Origin: Closterium sp. NIES-65 | Taxonomy: Eukaryota > Streptophyta > Zygnematophyceae > Desmidiales > Closteriaceae | Assembly: GCA_948144175.1 (NCBI GenBank) | Contig: CANXME010000315.1 | Coordinates: 47,641 to 111,640, forward strand | Length of the DNA stretch: 64,000 nt | Direction: 5' to 3' | In this document: one piece after another, positions 5,998-63,618 of the stretch | Numbering within the stretch: position 1 is the first letter of the stretch | Layout of the letters: each line of letters opens with the position of its first letter | Notes under the pieces: model-generated | The model's input: only the letters and a program-made list of their open reading frames with translations | Databases searched by the model: none | What the model was told of the DNA's origin: nothing | Program-made: the position numbers and the translations under genes

Positions 5998-6041
5998 GAC
6001 TTTTGAGTCGACTCAAAGAGGTGACTTTTGAGTCGACTCAA
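5998..6041. repeat. Tandem pair of TCGA-centred palindromes
   Basis: Two copies of GACTTTTGAGTCGACTCA lie 23 bp apart, between the two decayed copies of THOC3 exon 10. Confidence 0.85.
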
Positions 6042-6217
6042 TAACAACCAAGAGGCTCACTCACCTGGGGATGAGTGCTTGCCATCGTCGTCACATGCAT
6101 ATGCGAGGAGCAGGTGCTTGGGGTTCCACTCAGATCATTCCAGTCCAAGCAGCACCCCTGAGGCATAAAACAGAAGTGCTCTTGGGGCAACAAAGTACTA
6201 GCAGCAGGCTCACTCAC

Positions 6218-9200
6218 CCGGGGATGAGTGCTTGCCATCGTCGTCAGAGGCATATGCGAGGAGCAGGTGCTTGGGATTCCACTCCACACTGTTCATCGCC
6301 GCCCAGGATGGGATCTGATGCACCGACCGCCCCGTCTCCACCTCCGCCTGTTGTTGGAAGGGGATCCGGAGGAGAGGGTTGGGCGGCAGAGCATAGGACG
6401 TGGGGAATGCGGGGGAAAGAGAGGGATGGAGGGGATGTGTGAGGTCTGGGGGCTTACATCGCTGAGATGAATCTTGTGCTGAGATCTGGGGTGGCTTGCA
6501 TGAGATAGGGAAGAAGGATGGGGGAATTTTGCGCTGAGTTTAGAACAGTTTGGGAGGCGGGAGAGGGTGGTGAAGGAGGGAAGACAGGAGACAGGGATGG
6601 AGGGAGGCAATGGCGTGGTAGCTGCATGCACGGTGTGTTCTATGCACGGTGTGTTCTATGCACGGTGTGTTCTATGCACGGTGTGTTCTATGCACGGTGT
6701 GTTCTATGCACGGTGTTTTCTATGCACGGTGTGTTCTATGCATGGTGTGTTCTATGCATGGTGTGTTCTATGCATGGTGTGTTCTATGCATGGTGTGTTC
6801 TATGCATGGTGTGTTCTATGCATGGTGTGTTCTATGCACGGTGTGTTCTATGCATGGTGTGTTTTATGCACGGTGTGTTCTATGCACGGTGTGCATGCAT
6901 GATACACCGGCACAATGAGTGAGCTCGCAAGATACAGCACTATACATGCATGCTGCATGGCCCACAGTGCTGCACGGCCCACAGTGCTGCACGGCCCACA
7001 GTGCTGCACGGCCCACAGTGCTGCACGGCTCACAACACGGCACGCCTTACAATGTCAACAAAGAGGTCTTCACTAGCAGACGCGAGATACCGCCCATCGT
7101 GGCTGAAGCTGACAGTGCGTACGGGCCATCTGAGGAAGAGTGGTTGAGAAGGGAAGGGAAGGGAAGGGAGATGCATTGACCGAAGGGGGAAATAAGGGGA
7201 TTGGAGGTTGGATGGGATGGGACGCATGAGCCGCTCGAGTTGACAGCAAAGCCTCCAACTACGCCTTATAACAAAGCCTTATAACAAACTACGAGAATGG
7301 AGGGTAGGAAGGGACCATTTTTGAGACGCCTTAAAAACGGAAAGGGGGAACGGACAAAGCTGACTTTTGAGTCGACTCAAAGGGATGAAGGAGGGACGAC
7401 TTTTCAAAAAGGGACGAATTAATGAGCCACTGGAGTTGACAACAAGGAGAGGCGGAGCGGCATTGGAACATTGTGGGCACTAGCCAGCCATGGTAGGGGG
7501 CACAGGGGGCAGGCAGATATGAACGAAGCATGCAGCCTGACAGGTGCTGCTCACTCAATGGTGTGAGGGTGCAGACACACAATGTGTGCTGTATGTTGCA
7601 CACAACAGGGCACTTGGTACGTACTCGTGCATGCACTTATCAACTCTCTCGAGGCGTGTGAAGGTGCGCTCACACAGCATGTGCCGCATGTCCCACAGGG
7701 CGAGACACTTGATAGTCACTCGGGACATGCATACTGTTCAACTCACTCTAATCGTGTGAAGGTGCGCACACACAGCATGTGCTGCATGTCCCACAGGCTC
7801 ACCAGTGCGTCTGCACTGCCCGCTGCAAAGTACCTGTGGGTGATGGTGATGGTGGGGGGAGATGGCGTGGCGTGGAGAAGGAGACAGGGGAGGAGATATG
7901 AGGACTTGTGGTGGTGCCGATGGTCCCATCGGCTCGGCTCACCAGCAGTCTGCACTACCTGCTGCAAAGTACCTGCAAGCTGATGGTGATGTGAAAGGAG
8001 AAAACGGGAAAGAAAGAGAACGGGAAAGAAAGAGAACAGGAAAGAAAGGAGACGGAGAAATTGAAGTGTGCGGGGAAGGGATGAGAAGAAGCGGAAGGGA
8101 ATAAGGAAGAAGAAAAGAACTTCAATGGAGCAAGTGGAAAACATACCGAAAAGCATTTTTAGATAAGCAGACGGGAAACTATATCGCAGAAGAGAGGATA
8201 ACATGTGCAATGCAACTACATGCTTACATCCTCCTCACGCCCTCCCATACACACCCTCACTCTACCACTTCATTTTCTGATCGACTGACAAATCGCACTC
8301 CCACTCGCACTTCCACACACATTCCCCTCATCACACACTCCCTCCCTCCCACCGGCCACTCTACCACCTCCCTTATGCAATGCCTCAAACACACGCACCT
8401 GCCAAGGGGGTCAATGGCCAGCGAATACACCCCTGCTGTGTGTGCGTGCAGGGTGTCTAGTGTCTGCAGGGAGGGGTAACCCAAAACTTCCACTGCACCT
8501 GCAAATTGAGGTGTGGAGAGAATTTGAGGTGTGGTGGAGAATGGGGTGTGGTTGAGTTGAGGTGTGATGGGAAGTCGATGTGCAAAAGGAAGGTGAGTGA
8601 GTCAATGTTAGTTTTGAGGCGCCTCAAAACTGAAGGAAGGTGAGCGAGTCAACGCCAGGGGCCGGGTTGATGCCACCGAACGGACAGTTGCTCAGTCCCA
8701 CGGCTCATCAGCGCACCACAGCCACACCGTTTTGCACCGCACTCCACACCTGTGCACCGGAGCTCACCTGTGCCGGTTGTGACAAGGAAGATGGACCCTG
8801 TTCGGTCCCACGCGAACTCGTTCAGCTGCCCAGGGTACAGGTGGGTGGGAGAGAGACAGTGAGAGGCAGGGAAACAGCATGCAGACAGGTGAGAAGCGAG
8901 GCTGAACTGGACGGTGGGCGGAAGCGGAGAGGTAAGAAGAGGATACAGGAGACAGGGGGAATAGACGGAGGTATTGGTGTGAATGTGAGAGCCGTAAAAC
9001 GAACTCAGCTGCAATAAGTGGGGGCCAGGCAGAGATGCGGGTGAGGCAGAGAAGGGGCAATGGTTAAGAATGGCTGACCTCGTAGGTGAACTTGCGCTTG
9101 TGGATAGGCTTCAGCTTCCTCACATCCAGAATAGTCAACTCGTCCGCCTGCAGCATGCATGCAACCCCAGGCACCATGCATGCATGCATGCAACCCCAGG

Positions 9201-12200
9201 CACCATGCATGCATGCATGCAACACCAGGCACCATGCATGCATGCATGAAACGAAGTAGGTGAGGTGAGCGGTCTATCCATGAAACGAAGTAGGTGAGGT
9301 GAGCGGTCTATCCATGAAACGAAGTAGGTGAGGTGAGCGGTCTATCCATGAAACGAAGTAGGTGAGGTGAGCGGTCTATCCATGAAACGAAGTAGGTGAG
9401 GTGAGCGGTTTATCCATGAAACGAAGTAGGTGAGGTGAGCGGTCTATCCATGAAACGAAGTAGGTGAGGTGAGCGGTCTATCCATGAAACGAAGTAGGTG
9501 AGGTGAGCGGTCTATCCATGAAACGAAGTAGGTGAGGTGAGCGGTCTATCCATGAAACGAAGTAGGTGAGGTGAGCGGTCTATCCATGAAACGAAGTAGG
9601 TGAGGTGAGCGGTCTATCCATGAAACGAAGTAGGTGAGGTGAGCGGTCTATCCATGAAACGAAGTAGGTGAGGTGAGCGGTCTATCCATGAAACGAAGTA
9701 GGTGAGGTGAGCGGTCTATCCATGAAACGAAGTAGGTGAGGTGAGCGGTCTATCCATGAAACGAAGTAGGTGAGGTGAGCGGTCTATCCATGAAACGAAG
9801 TAGGTGAGGTGAGCGGTCTATCCATGAAACGAAGTAGGTGAGGTGAGCGGTCTATCCATGAAACGAAGTAGGTGAGGTGAGCGGTCTATCCATGAAACGA
9901 AGTAGGTGAGGTGAGCGGTCTATCCATGAAACGAAGTAGGTGAGGTGAGCGGTCTATCCATGAAACGAAGTAGGTGAGGTGAGCGGTCTATCCATGAAAC
10001 GAAGTAGGTGAGGTGAGCGGTCTATCCATGAAACGTCAGGCTTTGACACGACCGACTGACATCGAAGCAACTAGAATGTCAGTAGCTTGGCTGTAGTGTC
10101 AAGCCATTAGTGACCTAACTCACAGCGCAGCCCATTCACTCACATCACAAGACAGCTCACTAGCATAGTACGGAAGGTTGACGTTACAATACCACCCACA
10201 GCACAGCACGTTAGAACACACGTTACAGTACAGCACTTTCACGTTACAGTACAGCACTTTCACGTTACAGTACAGCACTTTCACGTCACAGTACAGCACT
10301 TTCACGTTACAGTACAGCAATTTCACGTTACAGTACAGCAGACTCACGCTGTTGCCCACAGCGATGTGCGTGCCATCAGGCTTGTACGTGACGTTGATGT
10401 TCTCGCCCTTTAGAGTCACACTCTGCTGACACCTGGCCGCTGACATGGCAAGGAGAGGAACACACAACGGACAGAAGACAGCAGCACTTGTGCAAAATGA
10501 ACAAATAAGAATACTCATGAAATGTTTGCGTGTGTGCATGTGTGCATTGCATGAACGTGCACGTGCACGAATAAGGATAACCGAAGATCTGCACAACATC
10601 TTAAGATGTTTTGAAGATTTGCAAAACATCATCAGATTGCTGCGTGTAACCTTCACTCCCATCTCGCGTGTCGCCAATGTGAACAAATTTGTCTTGAGAC
10701 AGTCTGGACACGAGTAGGTCCAGATGGAGGGGACGTTTGAGAATTCTTAAAAGTGATTTTCATATAACACGTCTGGACACAAGCAGGTCCAGATGGTCTT
10801 GAAGAACTTTTGAAGCGCCTCAAACTCCGCCCATACCATGCGCCCTTCACTCCCATCACATCACACTGCACCCGCACGCATCCGAAAGCGTACCCCCTGC
10901 ACTCACATCCTATCCCACACCCCCTGCACTCACATCCCATCCCACACCCCCTGCACTCACATCGTGTGTCCCAGATGCGCACGGACTTGTCTTGAGGCGC
11001 GGACGCAAGGAGGTCCGTCCGGGTGGGTGGGGGAGGAGACTCTGAGGCGCCTCAACATGCGTCCCATACCATGCACCCTGCACGCTTATCCCATCCCACA
11101 CCCCCTGCACTCACATCGTGTGTCCCAGATGCGCACGGACTTGTCTTGAGGCGCGGACGCAAGGAGGTCCGTCCGGGTGGGTGGGGGAGGAGACTCTGAG
11201 GCGCCTCAACATGCGTCCCATACCATGCACCCTGCACGCTTATCCCATCCCACACCCCCTGCACTCACATCGTGTGTCCCAGATGCGCACGGACTTGTCT
11301 TGAGAAGCAGACGCAAGGAGGTCAGGGTGGAGGGGGTCCCAGCACAGGTTGTCCACACTCTCGCTGTGGCCCCTCAACTCCACCTCCCGATGCTTGCTCT
11401 GCACCATGGCACATAGTATGACATGACATTCCATGACATGTCATCACATGAATGACATGACATGATATGTCAGAGTGGTGAAAGGGGCCTCTTTCCCAGC
11501 ACAAGTTGTCACCACTCTCGCTGTGACCCCTCAACTCCACCTCCCGCTGCTTGCTCTGCAGCACCACGGGCAGCACGTGAACGGCATGACACGACAACGA
11601 TGGGAGGAATGAGGCGGATGGAGGCTCAGAGTCGGTCGGATCGGAAACGTTACACTGGGATGGGGTGCTGGACTGGGATGGGGTGTTGGACTGACTGGAA
11701 TGAAACTTAACAAATGGAATGGGGCGTTGCCAGGCTGACTCACGGAGTTTGATTGGCCGCTCGGATCCACTTGCCACACGCGAATGGTTTGGTCCACCGA
11801 ACCTGACCCGAGCTTCTCGCCGAGGCAGTTCCACACCACCGAATGCACCTGGGTCAGAGAAAGAGAAAAACGTCATAATGAAACACAGAAAATGATGCAT
11901 TCAACGTTCTTTGGAACGGAATCCGTGTTACCTTGACCTAGCATCCTTTCCCTTCCCCTACCTTCAGTTCTGTATGACCTCATTCTGTATGACCTCATTC
12001 TGTATGACCTCATTCTGTATGACCTCATTCTGTATGACCTCATTCTGTATGACCTCATTCTGTATGACCTCATTCTGTATGACCTCATTCTGCATGACCT
12101 CATTCTGTATGACCTCATTCTGTATGACCTCATTCTGTATGACCTCATTCTGTATGACCTCATTCTGTATGACCTCATTCTGTATGACCTCATTCTGTAT

Positions 12201-12976
12201 GACCTCATTCTGTATGACCTCATTCTGTATGACCTCATTCTGTATGACCTCATTCTGTATGACCTCATTCTGTATGACCTCATTCTGTATGACCTCATTC
12301 TGTATGACCTCATTCTGTATGACCTCATTCTGTATGACCTCATTCTGTATGACCTCATTCTGTATGACCTCATTCTGTATGACCTCATTCTGTATGACCT
12401 CATTCTGTATGACCTCATTCTGTATGACCTCATTCTGTATGACCTCATTCTGTCTGTCAACTCCATACCTCCACAAGACCTCATGCCCCCAACACACTCC
12501 TACTCCCCCCCTCTCCCCCGTGCCTCCCACGCGCCTCCAACGCTCCCGCATGCCTCCCACCTGCTTTCTACTCCCTCATTGGTCCACGTGTCTCGTACCT
12601 TCTTCTTGTGCCCAACAAACTCTCGGCTGTACAGGTTCCTAAAAGGGTCCTTTCCCGCTCTTAGTTGCGACGGCAGCGGCGCGGGTGCCGGCGGCTGCTG
12701 TGACTGCCCTTGCGCCTGGCCCTGCCCCTGCGCCTGTCCTTGCGACTGCTGTTGCTGCAGCTGCTGCTGTTGCTGTAGTTGCGCTTGCGCCTGCTGCTGT
12801 TGCGCCTGCTGCTGCGGGTGCGGAAGCGGAGGCTGCGCGGGGGGTCCGCCGGGGTATTGCGCGAATCCGGTTGCGCCGGGGTGCGGCGGAGTGGGGTAGC
12901 GGTGGGGGATGTGGCCGTGTGTGAAGGGTGAGGGGTGGTGCTGCTGGTAGTGCATCGGCCCTCCCATTCCGTACAT
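6218..12976 (-). CDS. THOC3: THO complex subunit 3 (TEX1/THOC3), WD40 protein; 3' end unresolved
   Basis: WD40 propeller subunit of the THO/TREX complex, which couples transcription to mRNA packaging and export in the nucleus. Exons (minus, all GT-AG, phases consistent): 12976-12599, 11848-11744, 11398-11269, 10439-10348, 9147-9079, 8825-8768, 8498-8399, 7833-7747, 7129-7051, 6347-6218; about 409 residues. A Pro/Gln-rich N-terminus of about 110 residues precedes the first blade (FVGHKKKVHSVVWN). Then come GHSESVDNLCWDP, DKSVRIWDTR, GENINVTYKPDGTHIAVGN, ELTILDVRKLKPIHKRKFTYE, TLHAHTAGVYSLAIDP, SADALVSLWDM, SASEDLFVDI and GRSVHQIP...NSVEWNPKHLLLAYAS, collinear with plant TEX1. The usual C-terminal blade end was not found: exon 10 ends in phase 1 at 6218 and is followed by two decayed copies of itself (6150-6084, 5925-5594). 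The Gln-rich head is unusual for the family. Confidence 0.92.
6629..6890. repeat. 16-bp minisatellite
   Basis: About 16 tandem copies of TATGCACGGTGTGTTC, with a subset carrying CATGG instead of CACGG, lie in the 3' part of the THOC3 locus. The repeated Met-His-Gly-Val frames come from the array. Confidence 0.95.
6957..7035. repeat. 17-bp minisatellite
   Basis: Four to five copies of GGCCCACAGTGCTGCAC lie directly downstream (minus sense) of THOC3 exon 9. Confidence 0.9.
7364..7382. repeat. Palindrome of the TTTTGAG-CTCAAAA family (TCGA centre)
   Basis: CTTTTGAGTCGACTCAAAG sits between two diverged copies of a local sequence: ATGAGCCGCTCGAGTTGACA near 7225 and ATGAGCCACTGGAGTTGACA near 7420. 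A decayed family member lies at about 7316-7337. Confidence 0.85.
8611..8630. repeat. Palindrome, GCGC centre
   Basis: GTTTTGAGGCGCCTCAAAAC is a perfect 20-bp palindrome in a THOC3 intron. It separates GGAAGGTGAGTGAGTCAATG (left) from GGAAGGTGAGCGAGTCAACG (right), an obvious local duplication. Confidence 0.9.
9158..9246. repeat. CATG-rich minisatellite
   Basis: Three to four copies of a unit with CATGCATGCATG and AACCCCAGGCACC lie just beside THOC3 exon 5. Confidence 0.9.
9245..10035. repeat. 34-bp minisatellite, about 23 copies
   Basis: An almost error-free head-to-tail array (unit contains GAAACGAAGTAGGTGAGGTG and AGCGGTCTATCC) fills the intron between THOC3 exons 4 and 5. Only one clear variant base was seen, near 9409, which suggests recent expansion. 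There are no unique spacers, so it is not CRISPR-like. Confidence 0.97.
10208..10345. repeat. 21-bp minisatellite next to the THOC3 exon 4 donor
   Basis: About six to seven copies of GTTACAGTACAGCACTTTCAC abut the 5' splice site of exon 4 (minus sense). Confidence 0.9.
10963..11270. repeat. About 145-bp tandem duplication carrying part of THOC3 exon 3
   Basis: Two nearly identical units repeat the 3' part of exon 3 with its splice donor (DKSVRIWDTR then GTGAGT in minus sense). Each unit ends in a degenerate palindrome, CTGAGGCGCCTCA, at about 11041 and 11195. The functional copy is the one at 11269-11398. Confidence 0.9.
11965..12455. repeat. 15-bp minisatellite, about 32 copies
   Basis: TGTATGACCTCATTC is repeated head-to-tail in the first THOC3 intron. 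Because 15 is divisible by 3, it creates long artificial frames on both strands. Confidence 0.97.
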
Positions 12977-13442: not shown

Positions 13443-21882
<8,440 letters not shown>

Positions 21883-26512: not shown

Positions 26513-29500
26513 ATGTCAACCAGTATGAATTGGACGGCGGGCCGATGCGTGCCGGCGCTGAGAGTCGCAGCCCTGTGCCTGCGCCAATCGATGGTTCCCG
26601 CTCAGGCGATCCGGCGCCTCGGGTGTCCCGCGTTGCGTGAAAGCATCGCCGGATGCACGCAGATAAAAACTGACGGCTGTAATCGATCGATTCATGGCTT
26701 CGGCCAGCAGCGGGCTCTCCGGAGACAGCTGGACCACTCATCGACAGTCCTTACACACGTGGCACCTGCTGATAGGCGGAGCCGCAATGTACGATGCTTG
26801 GCTTCGAGTGCAACTGGCGACGGCGGAGCGACGGCTGGAGCCGAGTCAGCAGTTGCGGACGTGGCAGCAGCTTCGTCAACTGAAGCAGTAGCTGACGTGG
26901 AACAGACGAGTGAGCAGAAAGCGGAGAGCGGGGCTGCTGGGAGCGGCAAAGCAGGCGCGGGGAGGCGCAAGGAGCGGCGGATGGTGAAAGAGTTCAAGAA
27001 GCGGTTGAGAATCGCGGATATTAAGAACGGACCGAACGAAGGGATGGATCAGGTATGAATTGAGGGAGGTTTAATGGCATGAGAAGGTTGTAGGGGATAC
27101 ATATGGGGGTTTGCACGTGGAATGCTTTGTGGGGCCTTGTATTTGTCTTGCATTATCCTCAGTTTGCTAGTCTTTGATGCATTTGTCTCAGTTTGACACC
27201 ATTGCACGATATGTTCTGCCAGTTAACTCTATTTCTCTGGGTTTTTCCTTATTGCCTGATCGGATTCAGGTTGGGCGCCACGTGGAGCTCCGTGGTTGGG
27301 TGCGGACGGTGCGCTCTCAGAAGGCCTTCTCTTTCATTGAGGTGAGCGAGTGCATGAACATTCTTATGTGGTGTATCTGTAATGTAGTGTAATGTACTGT
27401 AATGTAGTGTAATTTACTGTAATGTAAACGTATGTAGTCTGATGTGATGGTAAAACGCCTGACAGTCCCACTCTCATGTCTCCCATCCCACTCCCAATCA
27501 TGCCGTTAACCCTCGGTCCTCTACGCCTCCTCACTCCTCCTCTTCTCCTCGTCCCCGCATGCGTCCTGTTCTTTCACACCACTCTCCCCTCCCCACCTGT
27601 TTCCCCACACCGGTTCCCCCCTCCCCACCTGCGCCCTCCATCCAGCTCAATGACGGTTCCTCCCTTTCAGGCATTCAGGTGGTGGCCACACCTGAGGTTG
27701 AAGGCTATCAGGAGGTAACAACAGAAGCTACCAGGAGGTAACAACAGAAGCTACCTGGAGGTAACAACAGAAGCTGCCTGGAGGTAACCACAGAATCTGC
27801 CAGGAGGTAACAACAGAAGGTAGCAACAGAACGCTTTCAAGAAGAGGTAACAGCCAAAATAATCAGCAAATGTCAATGAAAGGCCACCAGGAGGTAGAAA
27901 CAGGTAGGCATCTGGAGACTTGACGCAAGGTACAGCCTGGGCAGGCAGTATAGCTGGGCACCATGGTTAACTAGCCGTAGCCAACCGTGAAAACATTTCT
28001 TGTGGTATCTCTCCTGTCGTGGCTTGTGAGCTAGTGCTAGCTAGAGAAGAGCGACTTCACCAGTTCTCCTCACGTCCCAAGCTCCAAGCTCGCCTTGTTG
28101 GCGCTCCAAGCTCGCCTTGTTGGCGCTCCAAGCTCGCCTTGTTGGCGCTCCAAGCTCGCCTTGTTGGCGCTCCAAGCTCGCCTTGTTGGCGCTCCAAGCT
28201 CGCCTTGTTGGCGCTCCAAGCTCGCCTTGTTGGCGCTCCAAGCTCGCCTTGTTGGCGCTCCAAGCTCGCCTTGTTGGCGCTCCAAGCTCGCCTTGTTGGC
28301 GCTCCAAGCTCGCCTTGTTGGCGCTCCAAGCTCGCCTTGTTGGCGCTCCAAGCTCGCCTTGTTGGCGCTCCAAGCTCGCCTTGTTGGCGCTCCAAGCTCG
28401 CCTTGTTGGCGCTCCAAGCTCGCCTTGTTGGCGCTCCAAGCTCGCCTTGTTGGCGCTCCAAGCTCGCCTTGTTGGCGCTCCAAGCTCACCTTGTTGGCGC
28501 TCCAAGCTCGCCTTGTTGGCGCTCCAAGCTCGCCTTGTTGGCGCTCCAAGGCTACCAAGCTCCATCCATGCCATCTCCTTTCTTGCTCCGTCTCCTTTCA
28601 GTTCCGCTCCCTGCTCTTGCTCCTTGCCTGCTCTTGCTCCATGCCTGCTCTTGCTCCATGCCTGCTCTTGCTCCATGCCTGCTCTTGCTCCATGCCTGCT
28701 CGTCCTCTCCCTCACGGTCTTCCCACCAGGTGGAGGGGGGTGGCATCACCACAGGGGCAGCGGTGTCAGTGGAGGGAGAGGTGGTGGAGAGTCAGGGCAA
28801 GGGCCAGAAGATTGAGATCAAGGCTAAAAGACTCACGCTAGTACGTGCCTGGTACTTTTTGCACTTATTCTCACTCTGATATAAGTACCTTGCATGTAGG
28901 CTAGGCATTACCACCATATGTTTCAGTGGAGGTACTGTATTCAGCCCTTACCTGTCTGATGTGTGGTGGATGACTTTTGAGACGGGGGTATTGTATTGGA
29001 GGTACTGGATTCAGCCAGTTCCCCATCAAAAGCTGTTTCAATGGGGGTACTGTATTCAGCCCTTCCCTGTCTGATGTGTGGATGGGTGTATCTTCTCAGC
29101 ACCGTGCATGAAACGCCTCACGCTCACTCTGGCCTGGCTGAATAAGCCTTCCTTCTGCCTTGTCAGCAATCCTATTTCCTGCTGTCAACTCCTTCCTATG
29201 CGCGCTTATTCTGTTGACTTTTGTCCATGTTAATTTGTTCCCCTGCCTCTTGTTTCCTCTCCTCCCCTTTCGTGCAGGTGGGTGGCAGCGATGGCAGCAC
29301 GTACCCTCTGCAAAAGAAGAAGAGTTTTGAGACGTGCTGCCATCGCTACTGCCCCTCTCAAGACTCTTCTTCTTTCACGTGTTTCCTCTCCTCCTCTATC
29401 GTGCAGGTGGGCGGCAGTGATGGCAGCACGTACCCCCTGCAAAAGAAACGGCACTCCTTGGAGTATCTTCGCACCATAGCTCACCTGAGACCTCGCACCA

Positions 29501-32500
29501 ACACCATTGGCGCTGTGAGTTGACCATGTTTAGACGGGAAGATAAGAAGCGCCTTGAAGTACGCGGCATGGTTTGGAGTATCTTTGCACCGCATCGCACG
29601 TTAGACCATTCACCAACACCAGATCACATCCCACTGCTGGCTGCTACTATCACATCCAAACCCACCCCTGTTCACATCCCACTGCTGGCTGCTACTATCA
29701 CATCCAAACCCACCCCTGTTCACATCCCACTGCTGGCTGCTACTATCACATCCAAACCCACCCCTGTTCACATCCCACTGCTGGCTGCTACTATCACATC
29801 CAAACCCACCCCTGTTCACATCCCACTGCTGGCTGCTACTATCACATCCAAACCCACCCCTGTTCACATCCCACTGCTGGCTGCTACTATCACATCCAAA
29901 CCCACCCCTGTTCACATCCCACTGCTGGCTGCTACTATCACATCCAAACCCACCCCTGTTCACATCCCACTGCTGGCTGCTGCTATCACATCCAAACCCA
30001 CCCCTGTTCACATCCCACTGCTGGCTGCTGCTATCACATCCAAACCCACCCCTGTTCACATCCCACTGCTGGCTGCTACTATCACATCCAAACCCACCCC
30101 TGTTCACATCCCACTGCTGGCTGCTACTATCACATCCAAACCCACCCCTGTTCACATCCCACTGCTGGCTGCTACTATCACATCCAAACCCACCCCTGTT
30201 CACATCCCACTGCTGGCTGCTACTATCACATCCAAACCCACCCCTGTTCACATCCCACTGCTGGCTGCTACTATCACATTCCACTCCGTGTGGTGTCTTG
30301 AGTACACTGCGCAGTGCTCTGGCCCAGACCTACCACCGCTTGTTCCAGTCACATGCCTTTGTGTGGGTGGCAATGGCGTTGTCTTTCCTTATTACCTTTC
30401 CGCGCATCCCACCCCTCTCCCTCGCACTGCAGGTGTCCCGGGTGCGCAGTGCCTTGGCACAGGCATCGCACCGCTTCTTCCAGTCGCACGGATTCGTGTG
30501 GGTGGCATCGCCCATCATCACTGCCTCTGACTGTGAAGGGGCGGGCGACCAGTTCCGAGTCACCACGCTGGTGGGTGGGTGGGGGTGGGAGTTTGTGTGT
30601 GTGGGTGCAGAGGGATTGGTGCACGTGTCTGGTGGGTGGGTGGGGGTGGGAGTTTGTGTGTGTGGGGGCAGAGGGAAAGGTGCACGTGTGTGGTGGAAGG
30701 GGCGGGTGGGTGGGTGGGTGGCCCATCATCACGGCATCCGACTGCCAAGGGGCTGGGGATCACTTCCGAGTCACCACGCTGGTGGGTGTGCATGGGCGGT
30801 TGGGTATGCTGTGCTGTGCTGTGCTGTGCTGTGCTGTGCGGCCATGGCTGTGGTAGACCATGACAAGGAGTTGACCAGCCATGGTCAAGTGATGCCCTTT
30901 CTCTTCACCCATCCCTGTTCCCTGTCCGCACTTTTGATACGTCAAAAAAAAAGAAACTTTCCTGCTCTCTATCCCCCGTAATGTAGAGATGAATGGTGAA
31001 TCTCATGCCTGCCCTTTCCTCCTCTCCGCATCAACATCCCCTTCATGCCCCCCTTTCTCTCTATCCCTGTGCTTCGAGTCGACTCAAAATCTCTCCCCCT
31101 CGCTCTATCCCTATGACCATCTTTTCCCATTACATTTCGATTCCTGCAGATACCAGGCACCCCTGATGCATCCACGCCAGTGAAGGCCATCCCCACCAAC
31201 AAGGACGGATCCGTGGACTGGTCTCAGGTGAATGACGTGGCTCCGATGAATGACGTGGCACAGGTGAATGACGTGGCACAGGTGAATGACGTGGCACAGG
31301 TGAATGACGTGGCACAGGTGTATGACATGGCACAGGTAAATGACGTGGCACAGGTGAATGACGTGGCACATGTTAATGACGTGGCACAGGTGAATGACGT
31401 GGCACAGGTGAATGACGTGGCACAGGTTAATGACGTGCCACAGAAATGCGTAATGTCATGAAGTCAGGGGACCTAGGTGAGCGCGAAGTGTAGGAACATA
31501 CATAGTACATTGCTACTGTGACATTGCCGTGCCTCCTTGTAGATTCAGTCAGAGGCAGTGCAAACAATGTGGAAAGAGTGCAGAGCAGACAGTGCATACT
31601 CTACCTGACTGTGGCATCCCTGCGTCTTGATTTGTCTCTGCATCTTACTGTACCGCATTGTACCGCGCGTGTGCTGTGTGTGCATGCATGCCGCAGGATT
31701 TCTTCAAGCGCCCGGCGTACCTCACAGTGTCGGGGCAGCTGAATGCGGAGATCTATGCCTGCGCCCTGCACGATGTGAGTGAGACAATATGCTCCTTAGC
31801 CTGCTCGTCCCTCCCTCCGTCCTCCTGCATTATTTTCAGGCCCCTTAGAAAAAATACTGTCGCATAGCTCACAGTGTGTCAGCCCAGCTGAAGTGGAAAT
31901 GCACTCGTGTGCCCTGCACAGTTTGGCGTCCCTCAAAACGCTCTTCCTCTTTCCTCCACGCCTCTCCTCTCCTCCCCACACCCCTCCCCTCCACGCCTCT
32001 CCCAACCACCCCCTGTCCCCAGGTGTACACGTTCGGTCCCACCTTCCGAGCAGAGAACTCCAACACCTCGCGCCACCTCGCCGAGTTCTGGGTATGCCTC
32101 GCTGTGTTTCGGTCGGGTTGGGTATGCCTTTTGAGGCGCCTCAAAAGTCGCCGAGTTCTGGGTATGCCTTGTCCAGGGTTGGGAGTGCCTTGTCCAGGGT
32201 TGGGAGTGCCTTGTCCAGGGTTGGGAGTGCCTTGTCCAGGGTTGGGAGTGCCTTGTCCAGGGTTGGGAGTGCCTCATTCCCAACCAAACAATGGGAGTGC
32301 CTCATTCCCAACCAAACAATGGGAGTGCCTCATTCCCAACCAAACAATGGGAGTGCCTCATTCCCAACCAAACAATGGGAGTGCCTCATTCCCAACCAAA
32401 CAATGGGAGTGCCTCATTCCCAACCAAACAATGGGAGTGCCTCATTCCCAACCAAACAATGGGAGTGCCTCATTCCCAACCAAACAATGGGAGTGCCTCA

Positions 32501-47960: not shown

Positions 47961-47967
47961 CCCCCCT

Positions 47968-52407: not shown

Positions 52408-52599
52408 TGCACGCCAATCATCTGCGCGCACCTGCGAAGCGGGTGCACTGCTGTCCTGCGTGAGCAACGCTGGCACGCCGTCAACCTGCGACGTTAGCAC
52501 GCCGTCGACCTTGCCTTGCTGGAGCGCCGTCGACCAAGTCGTGCTGGAACGCGGTCGATCAAGCTACGCTGGCAGTTGACCGACCTGAATGCTTGCTCT

Positions 52600-53716: not shown

Positions 53717-53809
53717 TCTTGCACGTGATCGTGTGCCGGACGCCACTTTCCGAATGTCGCAGATTTCGGAGATGGCGGTGCGAAGGATTCCTGAGTCGCT
53801 CTCATACCA

Positions 53810-54246: not shown

Positions 54247-54371
54247 TGTTTGACACTTGCTTCATAGCCCATGTTGATCAAGTGCCCAACTTAAATAGTC
54301 GAATGCGTGCAGGGTATTTTCGAAACGTGGGAACAGTGCAAGGGTTCGGGTTTGAAAATAGCGGTGGTTAG

Positions 54372-54893
54372 CGTAATCCCCCCCCAGTTGTAGACCCCCT
54401 GGTCTATAATACGGACCCGGGTACTCTATTCGAGTACATCTGAGTTAGACCCCCTAAATGGCTCCTAACATTATAAGACCCCCCCACATACTAGAGAAGT
54501 GCGGATTTTACAAAAATATGCAATTGAAAAGGTAACGAATTTCGAATTTCAAATGAGTCAACACCCATTTTCAATGTGTTTGACTTTCGAAGGCTTCACT
54601 TGTTGCGCGTCCAGTCAGGATGAGCTGGCACGTGGGCAAAGTGACGTGCCAAATCTCTGTGCACAGTCAGGGAAACGCCCTCGCGCGATTCTAATTCAGG
54701 ATGATGTATCAGTATGATTCGATTGAACTTACGAGACTGAAATGTACAACATCGTGCATTCTTATAAATGTCAATCTGAACAGACCCGGGTCTTCTTAAA
54801 AAATATACCATTTAATTATACCCCCCAGCCTTTTTAGGGGTGATTATCATAATACCCTAGGGTCTTATATACGGGGGATTACGGGTAGGTGTA
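54372..54893. mobile_element. Candidate DNA transposon remnant with CGTAATCCCCC ends
   Basis: CGTAATCCCCC at the left and GGGGGATTACG at the right are inverted. Just inside, both ends carry AGACCC/GGTCT-type matches. AT-rich, no coding region and no convincing target duplication. Confidence 0.45.
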
Positions 54894-54948
54894 CTGTATT
54901 TGAAGCAGAGGTGTTCAGCGGCCAGCCTGTAACATCACTTTCAAGGTG

Positions 54949-54988
54949 ACTTCTGAGTCGACTCAAAAGTCACCTTGTCGACTCAAAA
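54949..54988. repeat. TCGA-centred palindrome plus a partial second copy
   Basis: GACTTCTGAGTCGACTCAAAAG is followed by GTCGACTCAAAAGTC. Together they separate two copies of GTGTTCAGCGGCCAGCCTGT (about 54909 and 54993). Confidence 0.9.
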
Positions 54989-55273
54989 GTCAGTGTTCAG
55001 CGGCCAGCCTGTAACATCAATTTTATTGGAGAAAACAGCCACAGATATAATTCCACATCTGCAACCTGGATGATACAGGAGACACAACTCACCATGATAA
55101 ATACTGTACTACACATCGCAATAAGCTAAACACCGTCCATTACCATCAGCGCAACAACCGTCAGCATAACAGATATAGAGATTCCACCAGCACTGCAGCA
55201 TAAGAAAAGGTTGCGGCACAGCAGCAGCCTCACTCACCAATACCGTACTCATCAGACAGACATGATTCATGAA

Positions 55274-56724
55274 CTAGGCAGCAGCGGAGGCAAAGAGCTT
55301 GGCCACCTCACTCCACATGGCCCAGGGCTTGTCAATGAGATCAACGGTGTAGTTGATGTGATGCTGGCTGGGCAGAAACTCAAACTCGCACGGAATCTCC
55401 GAATCCACATACCCGTTAGTAAGCGCCATGGCAATCGTCCCTTTCACGTTGAGAGGCAGCGACGCGCTGTCTGGCGCCATGGCAGAAAGCTGGCGGAGAC
55501 TCGCGGCCATGTCAGCGAAGTTCATCAGGGTGAACCCGAGGCACGAGGAGCCCACATCAGGGGGCTGGTTGGGCAAACCACCCACGGTTACCATGGGCAC
55601 TTTGTGGCGTTTCCCCAGGATGTGCGTAAGGATGGCGCAGGCAGAGAAGCAGTTTCCGTCCGACAGGACCCGGAAGGGCCGGCCGCCAAACACCGGCTGC
55701 CGCTCCTTCCCGGTGAATCTGTCGGTCATCTTGAACGGCGCCGAGTAGTTTCCAGCCGGGCCGGCCGCTGTGAAGCGGCGCTCGCGGAAAGGAGCGTAGC
55801 CAAACACGCTTGTGAGATTCGTTCCGTTGAGGTCGGAGTATGCGTCGATGAAGTAGAGAGAGGCCGCGTTGACAGCGAGCAGGCCGATGGCGTTCTCGGT
55901 GTACTGCGAGCCGATGATGAAATCCATGCGCATGGTGAAGCTTGCGTCGGGGACCTTGGCTGCCCCCATGAGCAGGCGGATGGCTGTGTATGATGCCACC
56001 GTGGATCCGCCACCGTTGCCCCGCACGTCTATGATGACCTGAGAGGCGTTGGACCTGAAGAAGGGAGGGGCATGGGGGGAGTGTGGGGGGACGCATGGGG
56101 GGACATATGGGGAGAGACATGGGGGAACGCATGGGGGGAGGCATGAGGTCAGGGCGCTAGCATGAGGGGAGTGTGGGGGGAGGCATGGGGGGGAGTGTGC
56201 GGGGAGGCATGAGGGGGAGTGTGCGGGGAGGCATGGGAGGACGCACGCGGGAACACATGAGGGGATGGATGGGGAGCACATGGGGAGCACATGGGGAGCA
56301 CATGGGGAGCACATGGGGAATGCTTGGAGGAATGCATGTGGGGGCAAGGGAGGAGACATGGAAAGGATCATGGGGCAATGAGCAAGAGGGGGAAACGAGG
56401 GCGGACAAGTGCTGATGTTAAAAGGAGTGACATGTCAGGTGCATAGCATGAGACAGTGTCGTGTGCCATTGTAAGGAGCAGAAAGGCACAATGCTGGGAG
56501 TCGGGACCACATAAGGGTGAAAGAAGGAGTGTTTTGAGACGCCTCAAATCATAAGGGTGGCTGCAGGTAAGGGGTGTAAGGAGGGAGGTACTGACGCTGC
56601 TGCGGTTTGAAGAGCCTTGGTGACCTCCTGGTCCATGACGTCATCCTTGATGTCGTCACTGAACGTGTGCAGCCAGATCACGGCCGTGCTGTTGTCCATC
56701 AGGTACACCTGCACAGCCCCCCCC

Positions 56725-56755
<31 letters not shown>

Positions 56756-56771
56756 GCACACGCGCGCGCGG

Positions 56772-56810
<39 letters not shown>

Positions 56811-59080
56811 CACACGCGCGCGCGGGCACACACACACACACACGAAAACGAGTTGGACGCACATGATTGGTCTACGACTCTACGCAAGTGCAGCAGGCAC
56901 CTCAAAACAGATCAGGTAATAGCACATCAGGTGGCAGTCAGTTACTGTTGCACACCAGCTGGCACACGCAAGCAAGTCACTTGATGACTCCAGCTGGCAC
57001 ACGCAAGCAAGTCACTTGATGACTCCAGCTGGCACACGCAAGCAAGTCACTTGAAGCTGTGCCACACACGTCAAGCCACAGACGTCATCACAAGCCAAGC
57101 ACCCACCACGCAAGAACCCTATTACAACCACCAGCATTCACCCCAACGACTGAAGCCATCTCGCTCACCAGGAAAAGGTCATCCTTGGGTGAGATCCTCG
57201 TTACAGTCGGCCCCCGTACTGCACCAGAAGAGCCGTTTGCTGCTGCAGCAGAAAGCGACGCAATCTCGACATTCAGGTTGCCGCTGCCATCGCTGGTATC
57301 ATCATAGTAAACTGGATCGGGGTGGCGCTTGAGAAACTTGTAGATCACTGGTGTGTCTGCTGCATGTCCGTGTCCATGGAGTCCGAGCGTGCTTGCGTGC
57401 GCGCTAGTGCCGTCAGTGGCATTGCTTGATGGCTCCACGGCACAGAACGTCGCCCAGTATTCCGTGGCGTTTGTGAAAGCAGTCAGGTTTCCTGTCCCGA
57501 TCCATGCCACCTGAACGTCCTCCGTCGAAGCACTCTTTCTGAGAGGTGCGGAGGGGAGCAGCACAGAGAGGATTATTGAGTCGACTCAAAAGTCACCATT
57601 TTCCTGTCCCGATCCATGCCACCTGAACGTCCTCCGTGGAAGCACTCTTTCTGAGAGGTGCGGAGGGGAGCAGCACAGAGAGGATTATTGAGTCGACTCA
57701 AAAGTCACAATTTTCCTGTCCCGATCCATGCCACCTGAACGTCCTCCGTCGAAGCACTCTTTCTGAGAGGTGCAGTGCAGTGCAGAGGGGAGCAGCACAG
57801 AGAGGATAAATCTGGCAGCCGCGGAAGAGAGAGCGCGAGACATGTTCAAAACTGTACGTGAGACATGTTCAAAACTGAGCGTGAGACATGTTCAAAACTG
57901 TACGTGAAGAAGATGAGAGTGGCGAACGAAGGCAGCAAGCAAGAGAGCAAGTGAAAACAACGACACGCGTAGCGACAGGGAGAGCCGATAAGAAAGCATC
58001 GACTGTCTGTCACGTCACTCACTCGATTGCGAACGACACCAGTAAGGTGTCATTTTCGGGAGCATAGGCTCGCCGGGCGAAGTCGCCTGGCACCTGGACG
58101 ATGCCTGTCTCCCCCGACGACCCATCCACTATATTCGCCGCGAAAGATTTCGTGAATCGCGCAGACCCGATTGCGAAACATGCCCCCTTCCTTGTCCGCC
58201 CAGTTCAGGATGAAATCTTCCGCCTTTTCCCCGTTAATAGCCACCACCTGGGGCGTCGCATGAAACATGGAACATGGATTTGTAAAACAGGTGTGTAATG
58301 CATGCAAGCAGGGCGCTGCTGAATGAACCAGGTGCTTGAATGACATTAACGAACCGGGTGACTCTATCAGTTTGTTGCATCATTGCATGCATACCTGTCG
58401 GCCCTCGTAAAGACTGAAGTCAAAATTGTGCAGAACCTTTGCAACATGGTCCAACCCGTTGGGAGTGACATCTGATGGCAAGAGGGATTTTCAAAAGAGA
58501 GTTTATGGTTAAGCTTTTTTCGTGGTACGCTCTTTAGGATTGCTCTTCTTTGCAGCAGAATGCCGGGGAATACCATTGAACAACCCTAACTGTTAAGAGT
58601 GACACTTACATAGTGCAGCAGAGCAACCCACAGACAGTACTGCAACACTCACATCGGCGTGGCGCAACGCAGCAGAGGGAGGAAAATCTTCATTCACCAA
58701 CCCTCACCGGGAGGGAATGCATTGAGCAACACTCACATCGGCGTGGCGCAACGCGAATGATCTGCTGCCCGTTTTCAACAACAGCCATGAGCGGCAACGG
58801 CAAGTCGTAACTGCTCCCTCCGAAGCAAGTCGGGATGGAACGCGCTGTGCCCGTCGTTGAGGCGCGTTGGTCGCGCGGAAACGCCGCCATGTGCGCGTCA
58901 ACCAGCCGAGGGTACTTTCCCGCTTCGGCGTTCGCGACGATTTTCCGCAGGTCCGCGACAATATCGATGCTGCTCGGCAGGTTGGTCTGGTCCGGCGAGT
59001 CAACGGCGATGTGCTTGTACACGTAGTGATTGTCGAACGCGTTCGCGATCGACAGCAGGTCCTCCACGTCGCAGTCCTTC
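55274..59080 (-). CDS. Peptidase S41 family (tail-specific-protease-like) gene, 5' end unresolved, one frameshift
   Basis: Serine endopeptidase of the C-terminal-processing/CPAF-like family. Exons (minus): 59080-58737, 58471-58395, 58247-58023, 57538-57169, 56708-56596, 56054-55274. Motifs: LVDAHMAAFPRDQ and CFGGSSYDLPLPLMAVVENG early; VVAINGEKAEDFILNWADKE; LVSFAIE; VQVAWIGTGN; the S41 core VIIDVRGNGGGSTVASYTAI; RVLSDGNCFSACAILTHIL, holding the likely nucleophile Ser; and VPMVTVGGLPNQPPDVGSSC. Exon 58247-58023 is 225 bp, but the frame needs 224: translation stays in register only if the C5 run at 58183-58187 has one base fewer. A hydrophobic, signal-peptide-like segment (LLPVLVLALLLQAPSASARH) lies in an open frame near 59640, probably the first exon, but its ATG was not identified. 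Confidence 0.87.
56100..56340. repeat. ATGGGGGGA/GGGAGCACAT arrays
   Basis: Diverged G-rich units and four to five copies of GGGGAGCACAT lie in the intron before the last S41 exon. Confidence 0.8.
56532..56549. repeat. Palindrome with ACGC centre
   Basis: TGTTTTGAGACGCCTCAAAT lies between two copies of CATAAGGGTG in an S41-gene intron. Confidence 0.8.
56718..56845. repeat. Poly-C and (CA)n/(CG)n microsatellite
   Basis: A C run of about 22 is followed by CACA and CGCG runs, immediately upstream (minus sense) of the S41 exon at 56708. Confidence 0.95.
57500..57800. repeat. About 118-bp tandem triplication of an S41 exon start
   Basis: Three copies of the 5' part of exon 57538-57169, with its acceptor (CTCTCAG|AAAGAG in minus sense), are separated by two TCGA-centred palindromes at about 57576-57592 and 57688-57704. 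Only the first (rightmost in sense) copy continues into the full exon. Confidence 0.92.
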
Positions 59081-59719
59081 CTGCCATGTGGGAGATCGGC
59101 CGTGGCAATTGTACAACCGCAAATCAGGCCAACATAAACGAGACCAGAAAGCGTGGAGTTCGGTTTCAGTTCAGTGGCGCATGAAAATAGATAGCGGAAA
59201 AGAAAAATATCAGCAAAACTCTTTCACGGTACATGAACGGTGGCGGTACAATACAGTACCTGAACAGGAACGTGGAGTGGCACGCGCGGAAGAGAGAAGG
59301 AGCAGCGAATCCTTGCCCTCCAGTCTTGTCCCCAAGTTTCCCCCGCAGTGCGATTCAGCTCCGCTGCCAGCGCAGCACACGGGTCGGGCGCGGCTCCGGC
59401 TGCGATTGAATCCGTTCAGAGGGGCGTCGTGGCACGATACCGCAGGAGCCGGCGCCGGCGCCGCCGGAGCTGGCGCCGGGACTGCTGAAACTGGCTGCCA
59501 ACAGCCACCTCTGCCGGTCCGTCGGACTCCGCGGCAGTGAGAGTGGCGGGCTTCGCGGCGACGGGGAAGAGGCCGTCGTTCCAGAACCAGTGGCGGGCGG
59601 ACGCGGAGGGCGCCTGGAGCAGCAATGCGAGGACGAGCACGGGGAGAAGCCCCGCCGCCGTGGAGAACGCGCCGCCGCGCCCTTGAGTGACGGCCCGTCG
59701 CGGGGCAGCCAATTGCGCT

Positions 59720-61760: not shown

Positions 61761-61784
61761 ACCCCCACCACTTGCAGGTGTTGC

Positions 61785-61970
61785 AGTGGTGGCTTTTCAA
61801 GGAGCTCAAAGATGCACAGGGGCAGGCAGAGGTAGCAGCTGACGCTGACAACTCCTATCTCCCCACCCACCCCCCTGTTCCAGTCTCGTTCATTCCACCC
61901 CAGGCGTCGCGGTCACGGCTGTTCAAGGAGTTGAAGGAGGCGCAGCGGGAGGCACGGGTTGCAGCTGACG
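61785..61970 (+). other. Two decayed copies of the first recognised PEX4 exon
   Basis: At about 61790-61850 and 61908-61968 the sequence encodes LFKELKDAQGQAEVAADAD and RLFKELKEAQREARVAADAD, close to the start of exon 62049-62174. Further 3' fragments with the donor follow the exon at about 62196-62285. Confidence 0.85.
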
Positions 61971-62048
61971 CTGACAACCCCGTATCTCCCCACCCACCCC
62001 TCTGTCTTAATCTCGTTCCATCCCTTCCTCTCGTTCATTCCATCACAG

Positions 62049-63618
62049 GCGTCGCGGTCGCGGCTGTTCAAGGAGTTGAAGGAGGCGCAGAGGGAGGCAA
62101 AGGGATCAGCCGATGCTGACATCATCCTGAGCTGTGATGAGAGCAACATCTACAGATGGACGGCCCTCATCAAGGTAGAGTTGAATGGACGGCTGTGATG
62201 AGAGCAACATCAACAGATGGATGGCCCTGATCAAGGTATGCAGGATGTGACGGTTGTGATGAGAGCAACGTTTACAGATGGACGTCTATTATCACTGCTT
62301 CCGCATCTTCCTAAACCCCTTCGTAACTCAGCCCCCCCTGCTGTTTAGTACATTCAACCTATGATACGTAATGGCCCTGCCTCAAAGCCTAGGGTTGACT
62401 CGTGTGCCCCTTCCCTCCCTCCCCCCCAACCCCCCCTCCCCCCCTCTCCGCCTCTCGCTGCTGCCTACCCTTGACCCCGATGTTCTTTCCCCAGGGCCCA
62501 GCTGACACCGCCTTATTACGGAGGGCATTCACCCTCACCATCAACGTGCCCCAGCAGTACCCTCTTGTTCCGCCCCAAGTGCGGTTCGCTACCAAGGTCT
62601 TCCACCCCAACGTGCACTTCAAGGTCAGTCAACTCTGAGTCAACTCAAGTCAACCAAGATCTTCCACTCCCAAGTGCACTTCAAGGTCAGTCAACTCCGG
62701 GTCATCACATTTCGGCCAATGCACTTTATACATCATCCACATGGCATGGAATCAGCTTCAGTGTGTCTCTCACCTGACTCCCGTTTCTCTCACCTGACTC
62801 CCGTTTCTTTCTCTCACTCACCAACTCCTTCCCCTTGCACCCCCTCTTTCCCCCCCCCCTTCCCTCTTCCACGCCCTACCACCCAGACGGGGGAGATCTG
62901 TTTGGACATCCTCAAGACCGCATGGAGCTCTGCCTGGTCCCTCACACCCGTGTGCACTCGAGGGACTTCATCCCATGCGTGTGCATCTCCGTCATCACTC
63001 TCACCCCTTCGTCCCCCTTACCTCCCCTTCCTCCCCTTCCACGCCATGCCATGCAGACGGGGGAGATCTGTTTGGACATCCTCAAGACGGCATGGAGCCC
63101 AGCTTGGACCCTCACATCCGTGTGTCGCGCCATCATCACTCTCCTCTGCCACCCCGAGGCCGACAGCCCACTCAACTGCGACTCAGGTGAGTGAGACACA
63201 TCAGGTCAATCAAGTCCACCAAGTCGCTTCTAGTGGGAATTTTCTCGTGTCTCTGTGTCGCGCCATCATCACTCTCCTTTGCCACCCCGAGGCCGACAGC
63301 CCACTCAACTGCAACTCAGGTGACTGACATTCCAGCTTGGATCGGTGTCGAGTCCAACAAGTCACGTTCAAAATGAACCCGTCACGTCCATGAGTCTAAT
63401 CTCATGTCTCTCTCTCTCTCTTTCCCCCCCCTTGTGTACATACCCCCTCTCGTGTAAATACCCCCTCTCACGTACGTAACCCCTCTCGTGTGTTCCCTCC
63501 ATGCGACCCACCCCATTCCCCTGCAGGCAATCTGATTCGAGCAGGTGACAACCGGGGCTATTGCTCCATGGCTCGCATGTACACTAAACTCCACGCCATG
63601 CCGCCCGCTGCCAGATGA
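62049..63618 (+). CDS. PEX4: PEX4 / UBC21, peroxisomal ubiquitin-conjugating enzyme (first exon not found)
   Basis: E2 enzyme that monoubiquitinates the PEX5 receptor so that it can be recycled from the peroxisome membrane. Exons: 62049-62174, 62495-62623, 63057-63186, 63527-63618; 158 residues plus a missing N-terminal Met-Gln or similar (Arabidopsis UBC21 has 157). Sequence order matches: ASRSRLFKELKEAQREAKGS, DESNIYRWTALIKGP, PLVPPQVRFATKVFHPNVHF, then TGEICLDILKTAWSPAWTL with the catalytic Cys, VCRAIITLLCHPEADSPLNC, and GNLIRAGDNRGYCSMARMYT. The usual YxGGxF segment reads ALLRRAF, which looks like two compensating one-base changes near 62512 and 62524. Copies of exon 3 occur at 62887-62960 and 63260-63321, of exon 2 at about 62650-62685, and of exon 4 near 63690-63745. 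Confidence 0.95.
62620..62700. repeat. Decayed palindrome and copied PEX4 exon 2 end
   Basis: CAACTCTGAGTCAACTCAAGTC separates ACGTGCACTTCAAGGTCAGT from AAGTGCACTTCAAGGTCAGT; both carry the exon end and splice donor. Confidence 0.8.

Follow-up and report, generated by a model that had tools for sequence, protein, structure and literature searches.

The palindromes of the form TTTTGAG-N4-CTCAAAA dispersed along the window (the whole 64,000 bp stretch of Closterium sp. NIES-65 DNA analysed here) are probably copies of a mobile palindromic micro-element of about 18 to 52 bp, with no clear target motif, captured at long-staggered breaks. Sites filled on one side and empty on the other were found reciprocally in homologous contigs. 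In the first case (A), the window, which belongs to contig C315, carried two palindromes of the TCGA class, each with one mismatch (57574–57591 and 57686–57703), between three copies of an 86 bp unit on the forward strand (57488–57573, the others starting at 57600 and 57712). Contigs C2249 and C1653 had a single copy of the unit and neither palindrome. This single copy contained 10 extra bases, as did the third unit of the window. In the second case (B), the window showed one copy of a 49 bp sequence (57806–57854, forward strand) and no palindrome, and in C2249 and C1653 two identical 49 bp repeats flanked a 36 bp palindromic insert. Contig C2372 matched the window over the entire query at 100% (rounded) and so has the filled state in case A and the empty state in case B. 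As C2249 and C1653 were identical over the 350 bp fetched, and C315 and C2372 matched at 100%, each pair may amount to a single independent contig. The reciprocal sites indicate that palindrome and duplication arrived together at these positions. A single-copy site thus faced a duplicated site, as in duplications produced by break repair, and the single-copy state would be the ancestral one. The two palindromes and three units of case A, with the 10-base difference, imply a later tandem step.

A paralogous empty site was also found, for the copy C6:109299, in two neighbouring repeat units. The local paralogues of C6:106805 and C9:136264, tried as empty sites, aligned too poorly to be judged. 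Near-identical homologous contigs were rejected as a source of empty sites: ten predicted-empty queries all returned filled insertions in the homologous contigs found, which suggests that polymorphic copies may be rare. Three C6-type contigs differed solely by an exon-array unit, a 4 bp repeat and two single bases, and 2.4 kb of C2372, resembling the window at 97%, also possessed the palindromes at 32129, 32827 and 33725.

Chance can be rejected as the origin of the palindrome, since the assembly contained 30,327 exact matches to TTTTGAG-N4-CTCAAAA and four to the reversed control pattern. This excess bears out the proposed dispersed family; the figure of 30,327 is not a tally of independent insertions, because many regions are present in the assembly as homologous copies and tandem arrays are numerous. 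Perfect palindromes of at least 14 bp numbered 106, against 15 in one Markov shuffle. Simple repeats aside, the TTTTGAG-N4-CTCAAAA core was the sole recurrent long palindrome in a non-random sample of 264 kb, made of the window and 200 kb picked for known core matches. It was not found in one 3.9 kb locus of rbcL, a gene whose best PDB matches are Form I enzymes of green plants and whose start looks streptophyte. The spliced-leader pattern of dinoflagellates had no exact match, and a dinoflagellate origin was rejected. The conserved part of the palindrome was its centre, the ends being ragged, and the central tetramer was TCGA, GCGC, ACGT or AATT in 65 of 70 copies sampled.

Within the window, where the original prediction had counted about 20 copies, 21 were found with two mismatches or fewer (five exact, 13 with one arm mismatch and three with two), located among intron-bearing genes. 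The predicted coordinates were correct to one or two bases, except that the site at 15876 was a degenerate half beside the copy at 15901. The centre had been described as variable and itself palindromic; this held for 16 of the 21 copies but not for the five at 7319, 14403, 15901, 34472 and 56532. The left or first repeat copies given below with coordinates are on the forward strand, those of the variant at 29325 aside. A tandem pair of the TCGA class with a period of 25 and one mismatch in each member (6001–6018 and 6026–6043) was followed by a copy with the centre ACGC (7319–7336, one mismatch) and another of the TCGA class (7365–7382, one mismatch). The exact GCGC-class copy at 8612–8629 was surrounded by a 20 bp duplication (8586–8605 and 8633–8652). 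The copies with two mismatches belonged to the AATT (10735–10752), GCGC (10808–10825) and TCGA (31072–31089) classes. An ACGT-class copy with one mismatch (13665–13682) lay between diverged copies of about 90 bp. The palindrome at 14403–14420, with exact arms and the centre TCAA, stood inside a 31 bp duplication (14365–14395, adjoining a Pta exon, and 14427–14457). The copy at 15901–15918 had the centre AGAT and one mismatch, with the degenerate ACGT-class half upstream at about 15877. Two GCGC-class copies with one mismatch each (18946–18963 and 18989–19006) were in tandem with a period of 43, the first being flanked by a 23 bp duplication (18923–18945, next copy 18966–18988).

Around the exact GCGC-class copy at 32129–32146, the left member of a 22 bp duplication (32078–32099, right copy 32148–32169) extended across an exon end and its 5' splice site. 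The gene is asparaginyl-tRNA synthetase-like (NARS), the name and the splice site both coming from reading of the sequence without a family match. Two exact copies of the AATT class followed, one with an 11 bp flanking repeat (32827–32844) and one (33725–33742) inside a perfect 23 bp duplication (33692–33714 and 33746–33768). A copy with the centre ACGA and one mismatch (34472–34489) separated two exon copies. The TCGA-class copy at 54951–54968, with one mismatch and then an extra half-unit, was enclosed by a 31 bp duplication (54911–54941 and 54993–55023), and the copy at 56532–56549 had the centre ACGC and one mismatch.

A duplication score of at least 30 was obtained for 16 of the 18 window copies with no or one mismatch, and for 78 of 88 copies in the 264 kb, compared to 129 of 400 random positions. 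The flanks are thus more alike than the background, which is itself high in duplications. When tandem copies were left out and the controls were shifted positions of the same region, a flanking direct duplication accompanied 33 of 40 isolated copies, versus 96 of 320 shifted positions. Both repeat copies lay within 30 bp of the core for 33 of 67 isolated copies (46 of 385 controls), and no duplication closely abutted the core in the other 34 of 67. The claim that nearly every palindrome sits precisely between two copies is thus too strong, close abutment being seen in about half. In 33 events the length of the duplication was continuous from 16 to 113 bp, with a median of 51. This supports the earlier claim that it is too long and too variable for ordinary target duplications, and no fixed length, such as the short one of MITEs and cut-and-paste transposons, was found among these events. 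A clear motif at the insertion site was likewise not found at the two edges of each of the 33 duplications; an endonuclease without site preference might still be involved. The number of mutations in the palindrome dropped with rising identity of the duplication (Spearman −0.35, p 0.048, n 33), and some perfect palindromes stood between duplications just 79–87% alike.

It might be that generic break repair does everything, long-staggered breaks producing duplications genome-wide and the palindrome being a favoured filler (a hairpin oligonucleotide or small RNA) with no mobility of its own. In mammalian cells, fill-in at breaks with 3' overhangs yields small tandem duplications (PMC8355091), and in rice Vaughn and Bennetzen attributed local tandem duplications to nicks or breaks that are staggered, then filled in and rejoined by end joining (cited in PMC7407515); extra inserted DNA is sometimes present in such duplications. 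The commonness of local duplications at random positions, their continuous length and the want of a clear target motif all agree with this explanation. So do the recent gapped duplications (gap of 15–60 bp, identity of 95% or more), 38 of 60 of which, tandem arrays among them, had no palindrome, so that the duplication process is not palindrome-specific. The remaining 22 of 60 held one with three mismatches or fewer, versus 118 of 5000 random 60-mers. One sequence family recurrently occupies the space between the copies, unlike in those break-repair duplications. This share of the fillers, with the existence of subfamilies with paired arms, suggests a lineage of its own that was repeatedly copied, and we consider generic repair as the whole explanation to be rather unlikely.

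The outer arms varied between subfamilies and copies, while pairing tended to persist within a copy. Compensatory changes gave 114 double-change cells versus 52.8 ± 7.8 after shuffling, and a covariation score of 0.251 versus 0.112, in rows selected by a G...C anchor and including related copies. Taken by itself, the ACGT class had perfect arms in five of 34 distinct rows, a number that shuffles also reached (mean 1.05). The arm-pattern search covered the classes other than AATT. The strands of the palindrome were computed to fold as hairpins. The half-site GGTGACTTTTGAGTCGAD had 221 matches, and the 12 loci fetched among them were mutated, degenerate or compound palindromes. Beyond approximately 25 nt outside the core, no sequence common to different loci was found (70/197 rows, simple repeats and neighbouring palindromes aside), nor was a longer parent element found in the sample.

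The hairpin could instead be the 3' terminus of a retroelement that integrates through target-primed reverse transcription and almost always loses part of its 5' side, the duplications being long target-site duplications. Target-primed reverse transcription is compatible with long, variable duplications, and two TCGA copies, L026 and L027, had in common some 19 nt on one side, past the GGTGAC arm. Against this, no longer shared copy was seen among the flanks compared, the edges of the 33 duplications had no clear nick motif, truncation affected both sides and not the 5' side alone, and the insert of case B was symmetric. We regard a retroelement origin as quite unlikely.

MITEs are small and non-coding, with inverted repeats, a high copy number and direct repeats on both sides, and the present palindromes share all of these features as well as subfamilies. 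A DNA-transposon MITE shrunk to its terminal inverted repeats would agree with the variant at 29325–29363, in which the half-sites and arms are 25 nt apart instead of four, inside a 68 bp duplication (29251–29318 and 29380–29447). Separated half-sites with complementary arms formed just four pairs in the 264 kb. This variant, with its 25 nt interior, was the one clear pair; another consisted of two neighbouring palindromes, and the remaining two were 1.2–1.7 kb apart and had no flanking duplication. A parent transposon with separated half-sites was rejected on these pairs and on the flank comparison. The palindromes also differ from MITEs by having no distinct interior, by a target duplication that varies between 16 and 113 bp and by conservation at the centre rather than at the ends, and their parent was not found in the sample; a MITE origin appears improbable. 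That the palindrome was a pre-existing protein-binding or fragile site, beside which later breakage or template switching duplicated the neighbours, is very improbable despite the conserved core with symmetric half-sites, the hairpin potential and the tandem arrays of palindrome plus spacer, given that the empty homologues had neither palindrome nor duplication. Among the three origins first proposed, the insertion of a tiny element is thus favoured by the reciprocal sites and the paralogous empty site, with staggered cuts that we infer, and a protein site or a hairpin is unsupported as the primary event there, the empty copies being devoid of the palindrome.

For the micro-element that we favour, we propose that the donor would be a self-folding hairpin, either DNA or RNA copied to DNA. 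Its capture would take place where the two strands of a break were cut 16–110 nt apart. Fill-in of the long overhangs, and their joining to both sides of the palindrome, would then produce the long direct duplication, and later slippage or unequal exchange may turn some flank–palindrome units into tandem arrays. Since the hairpin is symmetric, both of its ends could be trimmed simultaneously, and either arm could template the other. More tentatively, these copies might represent a new class of mobile DNA: a non-coding, self-complementary hairpin without distinct terminal repeats, spreading in the nucleus via long-staggered breaks and arm-to-arm copying, with a host duplication of 16–113 bp per insertion. 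No description of such a palindromic element was found in the open-access literature, judged by titles and the starts of abstracts. The organelle genomes of Volvox carteri contain short palindromes (11–79 nt, average 50), many in introns and spacers, thought to be selfish and often nested in one another (PMC2670323). Short palindromes with a common core, dispersed in large numbers, were found here as well. The Volvox palindromes are organellar with loops of the TAAA/TTTA type, their nuclear copies being judged inert transfers, and flanking duplications are not mentioned in the available part of that article (PMC2670323), whereas the copies sampled here were in nuclear-type contigs, had a self-complementary centre and often a duplication of 16–113 bp. 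The PATEs of haloarchaea are also small, transposase-free mobile repeats named for their palindromes; these lie near both ends, with a link to IS605-type transposons and no target duplication (PMC3119063), in contrast to the single central palindrome and the duplications seen here.

If the capture model is true, it directly ties selfish DNA to break repair, gives a natural archive of breaks with long staggers and offers a source for some of the genome's minisatellites, duplicated exon edges and local duplications. The new-class reading, if true, would mean that the lineage is steadily supplied with local duplications, minisatellites and additional splice sites. Mobile elements mostly reveal themselves through their ends and a fixed-length target duplication; in this family it is the centre that is conserved, with ragged ends and a long, variable duplication. 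To our knowledge, no mobile element duplicates the neighbouring 16–110 letters in such a manner.

Ten ORFs of the window were compared to Pfam. The NARS-region ORFs gave nothing but a single match, under threshold, to a domain of unknown function, and neither the S41 ORF nor the ORF at 31800 had a useful match in the PDB. The THOC3 ORF was far under the Pfam cut-off (26.8 against 305 bits), and the Pta and S41 ORFs were above theirs. Searched against plasmids, the Pta exon had 46 matching records, the three listed being bacterial.

The 64-kb window held five exact copies of the core palindrome TTTTGAG-N4-CTCAAAA, another 13 that differed at one arm position and three that differed at two. The original prediction of a genome-wide excess was borne out: the 874-Mb assembly (2,400 contigs), in which the window spans C315:47641–111640, held 30,327 exact matches, versus 4 for the pattern read backwards. 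The window was combined with 200 kb from contigs C6, C9 and C10 into a 264-kb sample; these 200 kb had been picked for known core matches, so densities there do not represent genome averages. The sample contained 106 perfect palindromes of at least 14 bp, compared with 15 in one Markov shuffle, and 64 of the 106 carried the core TTGAG-N4-CTCAA. Simple repeats excepted, no second recurrent core was present among these 106. At 52 bp, the perfect palindrome at C10:472603 was the longest in the sample.

In the 200 kb, 70 copies had at most one arm mismatch. The centre was TCGA in 26, GCGC in 19, ACGT in 17 and AATT in three, and the remaining five had single variant centres. The outer arms varied with the class of the centre. 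The pattern G-N7-core-N7-C, searched genome-wide for three classes, gave 2,981 TCGA, 885 GCGC and 296 ACGT matches. Among the first 50 plus-strand matches listed per class, symmetric subfamily arms included GAGGTGAC...GTCACCTC, GAGTCGAT...ATCGACTC and GAGTCGGT...ACCGACTC for TCGA; GAGGTCGT...ACGACCTC, GAGGTGTA...TACACCTC and GAGGTGTG...CACACCTC for GCGC; and GAGGGTGT...ACACCCTC, GAGGGTAT...ATACCCTC, GAGGTTAT...ATAACCTC and GAGTGAAG...CTTCACTC for ACGT.

The two arms appeared to covary. In 56 distinct rows (33 ACGT and 23 TCGA), double changes that kept the pairing filled 114 cells versus 52.8 ± 7.8 after shuffling. The covariation score was 0.251 versus 0.112, falling to about 0.06 once one arm was slid by a base. 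Because kinship among rows and the very difference between classes both raise such a score, it is taken as supporting covariation without proving it. Within the ACGT class alone, an average of 3.76 of the 7 outer positions matched, compared with 2.78 in shuffles (maximum 3.53), and the arms were perfect in 5 of 34 rows (shuffle mean 1.05, maximum 5). Three or fewer outer positions matched in 16 of the 34 rows, as expected if many copies had been trimmed.

A local duplication straddled 129 of 400 random positions in the 264-kb sample, so a naive count of duplications is misleading. We used a stricter control, in which tandem palindromes were excluded, control positions were shifted by 250–400 bp within the same region and a score of at least 30 was required. 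The predicted excess of duplications at the palindromes persisted over this local background (33 of 40 copies versus 96 of 320 shifted controls). When both repeat copies had to lie within 30 bp of the core, abutting duplications were found at 33 of 67 isolated copies, including those of the fetched loci L026–L036, versus 46 of 385 controls; about half of the 67 had no closely abutting duplication. The 33 duplications were 16 to 113 bp long (median 51) and 79–100% identical. Conversely, a palindrome with at most three mismatches occupied the gap of 48 of 262 gapped local duplications. For recent ones (gap 15–60 bp, identity at least 95%) the figure was 22 of 60, versus 118 of 5000 random 60-mers; the other 38 were partly tandem arrays and partly had different fillers.

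Homologous contigs provided both filled and empty sites, and this comparison was the decisive one. Over window positions 54700–58000, contig C2372 matched throughout at 100% (rounded). Contigs C2249 and C1653 matched at 95% up to 57573, immediately before the first palindrome base (57574), and the match restarted at 57712; on the target contig, the segments before and after this break share 96 bp. In 350-bp pieces of these two contigs (L045 and L046, identical to each other), the unit present three times in the window was single and both window palindromes were absent. Ten extra bases were common to this single copy and the window's third copy, and absent from its first and second. Downstream, L045 and L046 carried a 36-bp insert, AGCTGAC-TTTTGAGTCGACTCAAAA-GTCAGCTCAGT, flanked on each side by the same 49-bp sequence. 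Counting the final four bases of this duplication, the insert forms a 40-bp perfect palindrome. The window has the 49-bp sequence once (57806–57854), with one base different and no palindrome. The insertions are thus reciprocal, each homologue having one that is missing from the other. Each state was known from two contigs, possibly redundant copies of one sequence, and the homologues may be alleles or homeologues.

A paralogous empty site pointed the same way. At C6:109299 the insertion duplicates 60 bp perfectly, and two neighbouring units of the exon array are uninterrupted and single-copy. C9:127264, which aligns with a deletion, is a weaker, possible second case. Several results weighed against this reading, among them the isolated copies without an abutting duplication. 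Ten insertions chosen as young had no empty state in the near-identical homologous contigs found, all being filled, and three palindromes in the region of the asparaginyl-tRNA synthetase-like gene were common to the window and C2372 (97% identity there); many copies are therefore not recent. Also against it, some perfect palindromes lay between duplications merely 79–87% identical, and decay of palindrome and duplication was only weakly linked (Spearman −0.35, p 0.048, n = 33). GCGC and ACGT palindromes at C6:104156 and C6:104215 separate copies of one unit, which suggests two insertions in succession. In some tandem arrays each unit holds a single palindrome (periods 37, 53, 42 and 24), so units are able to expand once inserted.

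At the sites where filled and empty states were both seen, the palindrome was inserted together with the duplication. The most likely mechanism, in which we infer the donor, its capture and the fill-in, is hairpin capture at a long-staggered break. A hairpin-forming molecule bearing the core would be captured at a break with strands cut tens of bases apart, and fill-in of the long overhangs would create the flanking duplication. One study describes small tandem duplications arising in mammalian cells from breaks with complementary 3' overhangs via Pol alpha-primase fill-in (PMC8355091), and a review relates a proposal for rice in which offset nicks lead to tandem duplications with insertions (PMC7407515). 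What is new relative to known break-repair duplications is that a single palindromic family serves repeatedly as the insert. The nearest named systems are Volvox organelle palindromes (PMC2670323) and haloarchaeal PATEs (PMC3119063), neither of which fits the family. No description of it was found among the open-access papers searched.

A MITE of the ordinary kind, with a distinct interior, was considered as the source. Flanks of 300 bp from 136 copies (272 arms; the piece L025 duplicates part of C9) were compared all-against-all, setting aside simple repeats and alignments running through neighbouring palindromes. Among the rows listed (70 of 197), similarity between different loci reached no further than about 25 nt from the core. 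A search for half-sites up to 3 kb apart whose arms are complementary gave four pairs in the 264-kb sample: one clear, one compound and two distant ones that lack a flanking duplication. Five pairs arose in the reversed control, four of them falling on the same elements or on other palindrome copies. The flank comparison and this scarcity of half-sites oppose such a MITE. The clear pair, at window 29325–29363, is of the ACGT type: 25 nt of non-palindromic sequence separate its half-sites, and a duplication of 68 bp flanks it. It may be ancestral, or a copy that was interrupted secondarily. No clear motif was seen at the edges of the 33 duplications, which argues against an endonuclease that strongly prefers certain sites.

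At window 32129, where the exon was read as 23 residues, and at C6:109299, both read by eye, the duplication covers an exon end and the 5' splice site, so that the reading frame is kept. This probably reflects tolerance and not targeting. In the asparaginyl-tRNA synthetase-like gene, named by reading, an exon is present twice (34335–34397 and 34490–34552, about 92% alike) with a palindrome between; each copy was read as 15 residues. The exon array at C6:108900–110200 (252-bp unit) differs by one unit from its homologues on C1658 and C347 (L037–L039), a recent copy-number change in coding units.

Other repeats were seen. Parts of window 54705–54892, a dispersed repeat beside the palindrome at 54951, recur at 92–98% identity in over 20 further places. 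A stretch of about 300 bp (L011:8903–9202 and places on C117, C1829 and C1976) has dozens of matches at about 75–93%, often in tandem. Long tandem repeats occupy window 2834–3608, 9245–10035, 11968–12453, 28081–28550 and 29624–30279, with nearly identical units except in the GA-rich array at 2834. A search for the dinoflagellate spliced leader gave no exact match. The rbcL gene gave 24 matches, many full length, on C40, C75, C97, C162, C824, C1848, C2174 and other contigs, which are either redundant plastid contigs or plastid copies within other contigs. The best matches of its protein were Form I RuBisCO entries, which we take to be from green plants, and the protein begins with MSPQTETKA, which looks like a streptophyte start.
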